This document shows positions 5,343 through 9,908 of a stretch of DNA of 11,869 nt, piece by piece. The position numbers were made by a program, and so were the translations under genes. Location of the stretch: assembly GCA_003646055.1 (NCBI GenBank), contig QNDZ01000037.1:1-11869 (forward strand). Reading direction: 5' to 3'. The notes under the pieces were generated by a model, which worked only from the letters and a program-made list of their open reading frames with translations, was not told where the DNA came from and made no database searches. Source of the DNA: a bacterium. Lineage in GTDB: Bacteria; Hydrothermota; UBA3072; B12-G15. The stretch's first letter is position 1. Each line of letters starts with the position of its first letter.

Positions 5343-5358
5343 TTCAAATTTTATGCCA
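5343..5358 (-). promoter_or_regulatory. Candidate sigma-54 promoter of the zinc-ribbon gene
   Basis: On the minus strand the 16 bases read TGGCATAAAATTTGAA. This matches the -24/-12 consensus TGGCAC-N5-TTGCA at nine of eleven positions, with A instead of C in the -12 dinucleotide. The GG to G spacing of ten bases is exact. The predicted transcript start (about 5332) falls one base before the ATG at 5331, which would give an almost leaderless message. The dyads upstream and the nearby sigma-54 activator gene strengthen the call. Confidence 0.5.
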
Positions 5359-5376
5359 GAAAACAGAAATTAAGGG

Positions 5377-5390
5377 ATACTGATTTTCAA
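5377..5390. repeat. 14-bp box shared with the propeller gene upstream region, copy A
   Basis: ATACTGATTTTCAA on the plus strand is identical to 9859-9872. It lies 18 bases upstream of the candidate sigma-54 promoter of the zinc-ribbon gene and between that promoter and the dyads. Relative to transcription it is inverted compared with copy B. Its core, TGA-TTT-TCA, is itself a small dyad. It may be a site for a DNA-bending or accessory protein. Confidence 0.5.
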
Positions 5391-5416
5391 GATATTATAA
5401 AATAGAGATTGGATAA

Positions 5417-5466
5417 TGTGACATTTCAGGTCAATTACATCCTGAAGTTGTGACCTTGTATGTCAC
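5417..5466. promoter_or_regulatory. Paired dyads upstream of the zinc-ribbon gene (candidate activator sites)
   Basis: Two 15-bp dyads are seen: TGACATTTCAGGTCA (5419-5433) and TGACCTTGTATGTCA (5451-5465). The second extends to GTGAC-N7-GTCAC. Their centres are 32 bp apart and lie about 94 and 126 bp upstream of the predicted start at 5332, the usual range for sigma-54 enhancers. The distal dyad overlaps the stop codon of the activator gene. Half-sites agree with TGAC(A/C)T. Confidence 0.5.
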
Positions 5467-7343
5467 TCCTCTCCCTTTTTTATCTCCATCTGCTTCATCA
5501 GTCTATAAAGGTGCCTTCTGGAAATCCCAAGTGCCTTTGCAGAGGCAGAGATATTCCACTTGTTCTCCTCAAGGGTCTGGATAATGAATGCCCTCCTGGG
5601 GTCACTCTTTCTGCTTTTTTTCTGTATGTGTGCACTCACCTCTTTCAGGGTTGAACCATGAAAGTCTTCAAAATCAGGAAGGTGAACAACCTCTCCATCA
5701 GAGAAAAGCACACCCCTCTCAATGATGTTTTCCAGTTCCCTGATATTTCCTGGAAAGTCGTAGTTCATCAGAGCCACAAGGGAGGCCTTTGAAATCCTTT
5801 TGCACCTCTTACCGTACTGCTCTGAATACTTTTTTATAAAATGCTTCACAAGGTGTGGAATATCCTCTTTCCTCTCCCTGAGGGGCGGAAGTTCTATCTC
5901 AACCACATTAATTCTATAATAAAGGTCTCTCCTGAACCTGTTTGTATCAACAAGTTCCTTCAGATTCGTGTTTGTTGCTGCAATGAATCTCACATCAACC
6001 TTCTCTGCACTTCCACCAATGGGTGTTATTTCACCAAATTGCAGTACCCTGAGGAGTTTGCCCTGAAGGTGGAGTGGTAATTCTGATATTTCATCAAGGA
6101 AGATTGTACCTTTAGATGCCTCCTTTATCTTGCCTGGATAGTCCCTGACTGCACCTGTGAAGGAACCCTTCCTGTAACCAAACAGTTCACCCTCAATAAG
6201 GTTTTCAGGTATTGCAGCGCAGTTTACTGCAACAAATGGGAAGGGTGCCCTCTTTGAGTTATAGTGTATTGCCCTTGCAATTAGTTCTTTGCCGGTTCCA
6301 CTCTCGCCTGTGATAAGGACAGGACAATCTGATGCAATGACCCTCCCTGTTTTTTCAAGCACCTCCATCAGGGACGGAGATGAGCCGATTATCTGGCTGA
6401 AATCGTATTTCTCCCTTAAAGAGGATATTATGCTTCTGTGCATCTGTTTCATGTAGGTGATTCTTCTTGATTCCATGATGAGGTTGGATATCTCACCAGT
6501 TATTGAGTCCACGAGGCTCAACTCCTTCTCGGTAAATAGACCAGCAAGTTTCCTGTTCTCAAGGTATATGGCACCAACAACCCTGTTCTCGTGCTTCAGT
6601 GGAACACACAGGACAGACCTGAGTTTCAGGTCCTTAACACTATCTATAACAGACCATTTTTTATCGCTCATGGCATCCTCTATCAATACAGGTTCTCCTG
6701 AATGGAATACCTCTGTGGCTATTGTCCTGCTCACCCTCTCTGCAACTGGATTACCTTCCCTTTCAATGGATGTGAGAAACCGCATGCCAAGGTTTTCATC
6801 CACCAGTAGAATCACACCAAACTCTGCGTTGAGTTTTTCAATCATCCTTCTCAACACGAGTTTCACAACCTCATCTTCACTTGAATCCATGCTCATGCGT
6901 GAAATCTCGTAGAGAAGTTGATATTTCCACTTTTCATTCTCAAGTTTTCTGAAGTTCTTTACACCCCTTCCAAGAAGTTCCTTGATCTCATCAATCACAG
7001 GGTCTGATGGAATGGTATGGAGAATATTCAATGCATCCGTGATAGGTTTTTCATCCTTCTCTATTCTTAAAGGCTTGCTTGAAAATAGGAGAACCTCTGT
7101 GCCAATTCTTATCCTGTCTCCCTCCTTAAGTTCCTTTTCCATCACCTTCTCACCATTCACAAATGTGCCATACTTTGAACCCATGTCCTTCACAAAGTAA
7201 CCCTCATCCTTTTTATATATAAGGGCATGCTTCCTTGATGTATATACATTCTTTATAACAATGTCATTCTCCCTTGAGCGACCTATGGTCACCTGTTCCT
7301 CTATGGTATAGATTTCTCCTTCCCTGTCAATCACATAAACCAT
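5463..7343 (-). CDS. Sigma-54-dependent activator with FHA and GAF sensor domains
   Basis: This 626-residue protein is a bacterial enhancer-binding protein that would remodel RNA polymerase holding sigma-54. Domain order: an FHA domain (about 5-90) with GRS (21-23), SRKH (36-39) and NG (63-64), the residues that bind phosphothreonine; a GAF domain (about 145-295); the AAA+ domain (about 315-545) with Walker A GESGTGKE (346-353), the sigma-54 contact loop GSFTGA (393-398, Ser in place of the commoner Ala), Walker B IFLDE (414-418) and an arginine-finger region RFRRDLYYR (469-477); and a Fis-type HTH (about 584-618). All parts needed for activity are present. It has no response-regulator receiver domain. 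The start ATG at 7343 has GGAGG upstream and overlaps the kinase gene by 17 bases, so the two are made together. The natural reading is that the kinase output reaches the activator through a phosphothreonine bound by, or changing, the FHA domain. Confidence 0.93.
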   Translation of the reverse strand: MVYVIDREGEIYTIEEQVTIGRSRENDIVIKNVYTSRKHALIYKKDEGYFVKDMGSKYGTFVNGEKVMEKELKEGDRIRIGTEVLLFSSKPLRIEKDEKPITDALNILHTIPSDPVIDEIKELLGRGVKNFRKLENEKWKYQLLYEISRMSMDSSEDEVVKLVLRRMIEKLNAEFGVILLVDENLGMRFLTSIEREGNPVAERVSRTIATEVFHSGEPVLIEDAMSDKKWSVIDSVKDLKLRSVLCVPLKHENRVVGAIYLENRKLAGLFTEKELSLVDSITGEISNLIMESRRITYMKQMHRSIISSLREKYDFSQIIGSSPSLMEVLEKTGRVIASDCPVLITGESGTGKELIARAIHYNSKRAPFPFVAVNCAAIPENLIEGELFGYRKGSFTGAVRDYPGKIKEASKGTIFLDEISELPLHLQGKLLRVLQFGEITPIGGSAEKVDVRFIAATNTNLKELVDTNRFRRDLYYRINVVEIELPPLRERKEDIPHLVKHFIKKYSEQYGKRCKRISKASLVALMNYDFPGNIRELENIIERGVLFSDGEVVHLPDFEDFHGSTLKEVSAHIQKKSRKSDPRRAFIIQTLEENKWNISASAKALGISRRHLYRLMKQMEIKKGEE

Positions 7344-9788: not shown

Positions 9789-9794
9789 GGTATG

Positions 9795-9844
9795 TGTGAC
9801 ATTTTATGTCATATTATTCAGTACATTGACACACTTATGTCACA
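9795..9844. promoter_or_regulatory. Paired dyads between the kinase and propeller genes (candidate activator sites)
   Basis: A perfect 15-bp dyad, TGACATTTTATGTCA (9797-9811), and a second one, TGACACACTTATGTCA (9827-9842, one base longer between arms), have centres about 30.5 bp apart. The outer arms extend to TGTGACAT and ATGTCACA. They lie about 115 and 84 bp upstream of the predicted start at 9919, a typical enhancer position, and the half-sites match those at 5417-5466. Confidence 0.55.
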
Positions 9845-9858
9845 TGTTGATTTTGCTT

Positions 9859-9872
9859 ATACTGATTTTCAA
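9859..9872. repeat. 14-bp box shared with the zinc-ribbon upstream region, copy B
   Basis: ATACTGATTTTCAA is identical to 5377-5390. It again lies between the dyads and the candidate sigma-54 promoter, 20 bases upstream of that promoter. TATACT (9858-9863), which overlaps this copy, could also be taken for a -10 box, but no good -35 is at the right distance. Confidence 0.5.
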
Positions 9873-9892
9873 TGGATTATATTCATTTTTTC

Positions 9893-9908
9893 AGGAACAA
9901 AAATTGAA
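9893..9908 (+). promoter_or_regulatory. Candidate sigma-54 promoter of the propeller gene
   Basis: AGGAACAAAAATTGAA keeps the invariant GG, the AC at the end of the -24 element and TTG at -12, with GG-N10-G spacing. As in the zinc-ribbon promoter the -12 dinucleotide is GA rather than GC. The predicted start at about 9919 is directly ahead of the ribosome site AAAGGAGGG (9921-9929) and 14 bases before the ATG, a fitting arrangement. It is weaker than the zinc-ribbon copy at the -24 element. Confidence 0.42.

Follow-up and report, generated by a model that had tools for sequence, protein, structure and literature searches.

Sigma-54 promoters of the NtrC/NifA type carry paired dyadic upstream sites ahead of a GG-N10-G core with -24/-12 spacing, and are served by bacterial enhancer-binding proteins (bEBPs) that possess an AAA+ sigma-54 activation domain and a Fis-type helix-turn-helix (HTH), with a site adjoining the activator gene. 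The same features are found in a stretch of 11,869 nucleotides (the window), the complete contig C37 of a metagenome-assembled genome (MAG) of candidate division WOR-3, in which two promoters flank an operon for a Ser/Thr protein kinase and an FHA-GAF-AAA+ activator. Unlike the NtrC/NifA-type systems, the promoters of this genome have TTGA or TTGT rather than TTGC at the -12 element (8/8) and dyads of the form TGTGAC-N7/8-GTCACA, and a TTGATTTTCAA-like box stands between enhancer and core in 8 of the 15 promoters compared. Very probably, both intergenic stretches are sigma-54 promoters with paired enhancers for the activator encoded between them, a unit that recurs at six other transcription units.

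FHA domains in sigma-54 activators, with a presumed Ser/Thr kinase input, were reportedly described in Myxococcus xanthus by Jelsbak et al. in 2005; the system here differs in its single operon of overlapping kinase and activator genes, in its GAF domain, and in its predicted targets, which are secreted propellers with tails like those of the type IX secretion system (T9SS). Comparative reconstruction of upstream activating sequences (UAS) together with the sigma-54 core, as undertaken here, has been applied to the EBP regulons of Clostridiales (PMC6615313). The available portion of that study describes TGT-N10-12-ACA motifs in 15 groups and gives TTGGCATNNNNNTTGCT as the consensus of the core; UAS there mostly lie 100-250 bp ahead of the core, target genes are for the most part close to that of the EBP, and 170 of 263 EBPs control one operon, the remainder two to six. 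Compared with what is given there, the present sites are TGT-N12..14-ACA with extended GAC/GTC arms, the activator is coupled to a Ser/Thr kinase through an FHA domain, and the eight promoters are dispersed. Control of the bacterial exterior, namely polysaccharide, flagella, lipopolysaccharide, lipoproteins and peptidoglycan, has also been put forward as a role of sigma-54 (PMC3162934). The targets here, mainly predicted surface or secreted proteins, agree with that proposal; propeller proteins with T9SS-like tails are unmentioned among the exterior components named in the available portion of the paper. A full-text literature search of one limited collection returned no paper joining WOR-3 to sigma-54, type IX secretion or a regulon.

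Two promoters around a kinase-activator operon

The window belongs to an assembly of 1.87 Mb in 277 contigs, 80.6% complete (G000; other genomes are numbered likewise, with C for contigs and L for loci). Its relevant features are as follows.

5110..5331, minus strand: double-zinc-ribbon protein gene (PF12773 DZR), a predicted target, near-leaderless
5344..5358, minus strand (reads 5358-5344): sigma-54-like core of the zinc-ribbon promoter, TGGCATAAAATTTGA, GG-N10-GA; predicted +1 at 5332, 1 base before the first ATG (5331)
5377..5390, minus strand: 14-bp box of the zinc-ribbon promoter, near-palindromic, TTGATWTTCAA-type, centred 27 bp ahead of the core; relative to transcription it is inverted against the copy at 9859
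5394..5422, minus strand: competing sigma-70-like match, GTCACA-N17-TATAAT, 10/12; its first hexamer overlaps the proximal dyad
5419..5433, minus strand: proximal dyad of the zinc-ribbon promoter, TGACCTGAAATGTCA, N7, centre -94
5451..5465, minus strand: distal dyad of the zinc-ribbon promoter, TGACATACAAGGTCA on the minus strand, N7, overlapping the activator stop codon (5463-5465)
5463..7343, minus strand: FHA-GAF-sigma-54 AAA+-Fis-type HTH activator (bEBP), recognition helix ISRRHLYRL
7327..9753, minus strand: Ser/Thr protein kinase with TPR repeats (Pfam)
9761..9788, minus strand: putative sigma-70-like promoter serving the kinase and activator genes, TTGACC (9788-9783), 16-bp spacer, TATAAT (9766-9761), 11/12
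9797..9811, plus strand: distal dyad of the propeller promoter, TGACATTTTATGTCA, N7, centre -115, separated from the kinase -35 by 8 bases
9827..9842, plus strand: proximal dyad of the propeller promoter, TGACACACTTATGTCA, N8, centre -84.5
9859..9872, plus strand: 14-bp box of the propeller promoter, ATACTGATTTTCAA
9893..9907, plus strand: sigma-54-like core of the propeller promoter, AGGAACAAAAATTGA, GG-N10-GA; predicted +1 at 9919, then Shine-Dalgarno AAAAAGGAGGG
9933..11291, plus strand: propeller-type protein gene, a predicted target, with a T9SS type A sorting tail (TIGR04183)

TGAC-N6..9-GTCA is matched in the window at just these four dyads, with 0.86 matches expected and at least four in 2/200 whole-window shuffles. 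Dinucleotide shuffling of each intergenic stretch gave a dyad pair 28-35 bp apart in 0/20,000 trials, and likewise none for the pair plus GG-N10-G[AC]. An earlier note on this DNA, made from the letters alone, had reported paired TGAC-type dyads before both genes, and they are borne out as four exact TGAC-N7/8-GTCA in the two stretches; the GG-N10-GA cores follow them where its author placed them, and the dyad centres of -94/-126 and -84.5/-115 from the predicted +1 agree with those it gave. The identical 14-bp box that it saw in both promoters exists as two copies, one of them inverted relative to its transcript, since both read alike on the plus strand.

The box has a counterpart elsewhere: TTGATWTTCAA, a consensus derived partly from the same 15 promoters, is matched in 10 or 11 of its 11 letters in eight of them, 18-29 bp upstream of the core. 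The best match in the other seven has 7-9 letters, no improvement on shuffles (p at least 0.16). A near-palindromic box without fixed orientation fits the inverted copies in the two window promoters. IHF was considered as the binder of the box and dropped; its consensus, compared by eye with a few promoters, did not fit most of them.

The propeller promoter is preserved in the same-genus genome G001 (candidate division WOR-3 MAG AUK059), where both dyads, box and core are without substitution and changes are confined to positions outside these elements. A contig scan for activator orthologues returned one orthologue (JAGGTX010000145.1, in the same MAG) and 11 distant paralogues. The G001 activator is 95% identical to that of the window over residues 1-430, where the contig ends inside the gene, and the G001 search returned no zinc-ribbon match.

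The activator has the domains of a bEBP (PF00158 AAA+, 224 bits; HTH_8, 36 bits), the HTH occupying about residues 570-626. With FHA at 74 bits in the activator and Pkinase at 182 bits in the adjacent gene, which overlaps it by 17 bases, the two genes form an FHA-coupled kinase arrangement. The kinase has one membrane helix, judged by eye, and sub-threshold matches to propeller-like repeats. In a protein search with the FHA-GAF half, 240 proteins were matched, and among the 120 listed there are many FHA-GAF-AAA+ regulators, some carrying names from other phyla; the domain order is therefore not new. The genome also carries rpoN (PF04552, 161 bits, at C72), with the RpoN box GRRTVAKYR in a 478-residue frame.

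Both hexamers of the kinase-operon promoter are identical in G001, and the count of TTGACC-N16-TATAAT-like matches is no higher than in shuffles. Within window 9753-9766, its -10-like hexamer stops 7 bases before the kinase ATG, from which a near-leaderless transcript is predicted.

Recurrence across the genome and predicted targets

The 28 exact TGAC-N7/8-GTCA dyads of the genome include one further close pair, at C39:8312-8358; after it, reading the minus strand, come TGGCATAAAAATTGTA, a Shine-Dalgarno sequence and a propeller gene of about 709 residues. A profile, R1, was trained on four promoters (zinc ribbon, window propeller, C39 and the G001 propeller) and run on G000 and G001. Beyond the training sites it matched five places in G000 at E<1e-3, C52:7800 (9.7e-8), C27:8529, C29:8056, C98:6 and C7:11250 (6.0e-4), all upstream of a correctly oriented gene, and in G001 the training site only. 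The phylum-wide comparison set comprised 147 genomes, 145 of them outside the window's genus; among these 145, R1 had one match at E<1e-3, a background count that is perhaps slightly low because this run was filtered more strictly than that on two genomes. The one match (G009:C26, 23.7 bits) is a core-like site with a Shine-Dalgarno sequence and without dyads, after an activator gene with the helix IHRVHLHRL. With four training sequences the E-values are rough, and the meaningful contrast is five in one genome against one in 145.

The total in G000 is eight promoters, in six of which both dyads are clear; C27, C29 and C7, among the five new ones, each have two dyads with at least 10/12 arm letters, 30.5-32.5 bp apart, and GG-N10-G. 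Over seven promoters the proximal centres lie at -94, -84.5, -85.5, -99, -77.5, -98.5 and -98 from the predicted +1 and the distal centres at -126, -115, -117, -130, -108, -131 and -130, and 10-12 of 12 arm letters are kept in 13 of the 14 sites. The distance between dyads is nearly constant (30.5-32.5 bp, about three turns). The dyads are thus placed like UAS (about 80-200 bp upstream, with integral helical spacing between sites), with centres from -77.5 to -99 and from -108 to -131. GG-N10-G is present in all eight promoters, with TTGA at the -12 element in four and TTGT in four. Predicted leaders measure 14-17 nt, with a Shine-Dalgarno sequence, in four propeller-type genes and about 70 nt at C27; near-leaderless transcripts are predicted from the zinc-ribbon promoter (ATG at +2), C7 (+5) and C98 (+3).

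Two statements of the earlier note change in this light. That the face of the helix is kept fits the two window promoters; over seven, however, the phase of the dyads to +1 is unclustered (Rayleigh p 0.18-0.32), and helical phasing to +1 was rejected. The small local regulon it suggested gives way to promoters dispersed over the genome, with five further profile matches in G000.

Besides the two window genes, the predicted targets are the following.

C39: LVIVD propeller protein
C52: interrupted LVIVD propeller, split over separate frames
C27: 724 residues, 13 LVIVD repeats
C29: SBBP propeller
C7: second zinc ribbon, then a secreted-looking protein with PMP-type repeats
C98: PHP-like protein; family matches weak

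By class, these eight promoters precede five predicted secreted beta-propeller proteins, two zinc ribbons and one PHP-like gene, secretion being judged from N-termini by eye plus the T9SS-like tails. TIGR04183 (cut-off 23) is reached in four of the five propeller targets (window 28.1 bits, C29 26.3, C52 29.6 in a separate frame, C27 23.0), and C39, at 20.3, is below it; PF18962 is below its cut-off (27) in all five. The propeller repeat matches of the window gene are below cut-off. With E up to 1e-3, G000 has 44 PF18962 matches, and the regulon would therefore cover a subset. The kinase-linked activator probably acts through these approximately eight control regions, scattered over the genome, to turn on proteins that are mainly secreted.

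The C52 gene (L130, 1634-2879) changes frame between its start codon, its body and its C-terminal tail, either as a decayed gene or through assembly errors. The C7 zinc-ribbon gene (L138, 1646-1825), which has the same promoter type, is 54% identical to that of the window over 59 residues. A gene for a similar secreted-looking protein occurs in G001:C12 (L127) and G000:C111 (L142); upstream of the G001 copy stands a TCTGGAACAAATTTTGTA core that lacks the dyads and may be a sigma-54 promoter served by a different activator.

Recognition helix, dyads and competing explanations

Six full sigma-54 activators were found in G000, four weaker AAA+ matches being left uncounted, and the helix ISRRHLYRL is present in that of the window alone. 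Across the comparison set, the association of helix and dyad was scored on the best 30 of more than 150 HTH matches listed, from 119 of the 147 genomes, taking activators with at least 300 bp of downstream sequence (G084, with 57 bp, was dropped). Dyads of the TGTGAC-N6/7-GTCACA type lie within 500 bp 3' of the gene for 8/12 activators with S[RK]RHL[YH]R and 0/17 others (Fisher p 1.2e-4, or 2.8e-4 without G000; both values are optimistic, related genomes not being independent). The eight are those of G000, G001, G002, G003, G007, G027, G128 and G142; G016 (L227), in which the string RRH was flagged, has in fact the helix IDRSTLFRK and was counted among the others. Perfect 12-base dyads number 41, in 27 of the 147 genomes, against 17 in the control, and one is found on the activator's contig for 8/13 same-helix activators, G037 and G042 included, and for 0/17 others. 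An earlier regular-expression form of the helix test gave 5/8 against 1/21; that single case was RRHLH in G027, and the 21 included one false HTH. This association ties the dyads to the activator class and predicts cognate binding. The sigma-54 enhancer interpretation of the earlier note, for which it regarded the presence of rpoN and conservation in related genomes as informative, is supported by this tracking of motif and helix across the phylum, by the rpoN gene with its RpoN box, and by the unchanged propeller-promoter elements in G001.

Individual loci resemble the window. G042, from another family, has a kinase gene beside that of an FHA activator sharing 44% identity with the window's. 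Next to them is the gene of a giant secreted propeller protein, and its promoter combines a perfect dyad (-156) with a 10/12 dyad (-98.5) and TGGCTTGAAAATTGC. Dyads at -158/-92 plus TGGCATAAAATTTGA precede secreted-protein and activator genes on the same strand in G037, and the G142 dyad lies 3' of the activator, before a protein that matches SBBP below threshold; the search for a core after that dyad gave nothing convincing. TTGC cores follow the dyads in G128, G001 C177 and G002, and GC is at the -12 element also after a G104 dyad and before the G042 propeller.

Several observations weigh against the assignment of these promoters to sigma-54 and the window's activator, beyond the optimism of the Fisher values. 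Four of the 12 same-helix activators (G004, G037, G042 and G085) have no dyad within 500 bp, although in G037 and G042 one is present elsewhere on the activator's contig, and the core pattern downstream is found for 6/12 same-helix activators (among the dyad-bearing eight, not in G027 and G142) and also for 3/17 others. The short exact dyad is not enriched genome-wide (28 against 34 in the reversed control for G000, 9 against 27 for G001), and at E up to 0.01 R1 has a match in 16/145 other-genus genomes. The -12 C of TTGC is replaced by A or T in all eight G000 cores. The spacer is N8 in the proximal dyads of four of the six clear pairs and N7 in the distal dyads, which is uneven for one dimer; the C52 proximal site is weak (9/12), and C98 is truncated by the contig end before its dyads. 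The predicted zinc-ribbon start falls 1 base before the first ATG, with an AAAGGG stretch upstream of +1, and this promoter contains a sigma-70-like match (10/12), no more than shuffles give. The generic core TGGCAY-N5-TTG-N-W, tried as a genome-wide marker (28 matches in G000, 30 in G001), lay inside an open reading frame (ORF) of at least 100 residues on either strand at 27 of 28 examined loci (from 58) and was dropped as evidence; its reversed control (4 and 5 matches) contains CpG and is unfair. The incompleteness of the assembly, finally, leaves room for a further activator.

That room is what the strongest competing explanation uses: the promoters would be of the sigma-54 type, with the dyads bound by another same-helix activator missing from the assembly, such as an orthologue of the kinase-activator fusions of G001, G002, G003 and G007. 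G001 does have such a fusion, fragmented over C139 and C177 and accompanied by TGTGAC-N6-GTCACA sites. However, the fusion-linked sites in these four genomes have N6 and lie 44-67 bp apart, in contrast to N7/N8 and 30.5-32.5 bp in G000; none of the other activators found in G000 has the helix, and the window's own operon is flanked by two of the promoters. We consider this explanation improbable.

A different proposal, to which we give a far smaller chance, makes the dyads operators of an unrelated dimeric regulator, a repressor or CRP-like protein, with sigma-70-type transcription and a coincidental GG-N10-G. The TGTGA..TCACA arms resemble those of CRP sites, where they are 6 bp apart; those of the present dyads are 9-10 bp apart. 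Sigma-70-like elements are available on the correct strand of the zinc-ribbon promoter (GTCACA-N17-TATAAT, 10/12) and upstream of the C39 dyads (TTGTCA-N16-CATACT, 9/12), but the counts per region (1, 1 and 2 for zinc ribbon, propeller and C39) are within shuffle means and deviations, and the scan found no match on the propeller strand of the propeller promoter. Furthermore, GG-N10-G keeps its position before the start in 8/8, TTGC cores follow the same dyads elsewhere, and the dyads are associated with the helix of sigma-54 activators. Chance or an assembly artefact, with similar AT-rich intergenic stretches picked out by eye, could draw on the shortness of the motifs and on a dyad that alone is no commoner than its control, and is negligible, being already contradicted by 0/20,000 shuffles and by recurrence at eight places and in other families.

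Predicted circuit and related loci

On this reading, the activator and kinase would probably be made from the sigma-70-like promoter, and a signal would enter the kinase through its C-terminal repeat part. Phosphorylation by the kinase would be read by the FHA domain of the activator, and perhaps a ligand by its GAF domain. The activator would then assemble on the pair of TGTGAC-N7/8-GTCACA-type dyads, which are spaced by about three helical turns. The DNA from dyads to core, which often includes a TTGATTTTCAA-like box, would loop, and the sigma-54 RNA polymerase would be opened at GG-N10-G. The output would be mostly predicted secreted propeller proteins with T9SS-like C-terminal tails.

After the kinase-activator fusion genes, which have the same helix, dyads and a sigma-54-like core precede ORFs of 45-66 residues: L263 (G001:C177), 355-560; L259 (G002:C5); L261 (G003:C14); and L260 (G007:C505). 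These tiny ORFs have a hydrophobic N-terminus and, in 3/4, a Gly/Asp-rich tail, and a second small-protein ORF comes next in G001, G003 and G007. The tiny ORFs are possible peptide signals. The kinase, TPR and GAF domains of the fusion protein were scanned in G002. Family f11 has perfect N6 dyads in G104 and in G108-G111, between one and four per genome, and at G104:C55 (L241) one dyad precedes the core TGGCACAAAAATTGCA and a gene of 341 residues; another regulon of this kind may exist in this family.

Apart from these promoters, a stretch of about 30-60 bases at window 4963-5028 is repeated (8 listed places, 5 G001 contigs, 78-96% identity). The repeat extends to a TCACCGGGC/GCCCGGTGA hairpin at 5023-5046 and represents an intergenic repeat family.

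From a reading of raw DNA, a sigma-54 regulon is thus predicted for an uncultured phylum, a prediction that covers activator, DNA motif, promoter layout and targets. It connects a Ser/Thr kinase-FHA pair with propeller proteins that are predicted to be secreted and have T9SS-like tails. The rule that it offers, the helix S[RK]RHL[YH]R paired with TGTGAC-N6/7-GTCACA, lends itself to bench work on short DNA and a small HTH domain. More tentatively, and rather improbably in our view, activators with ISRRHLYRL and TGTGAC-N6/7-GTCACA enhancers may make up one WOR-3-type signalling family, in which kinase and FHA activator are separate (window, G042) or a kinase-TPR-GAF-AAA+ fusion takes their place, with some members acting as peptide sensors. 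If so, it would be an RRNPP-like circuit, with a TPR-sensed peptide, run through sigma-54.

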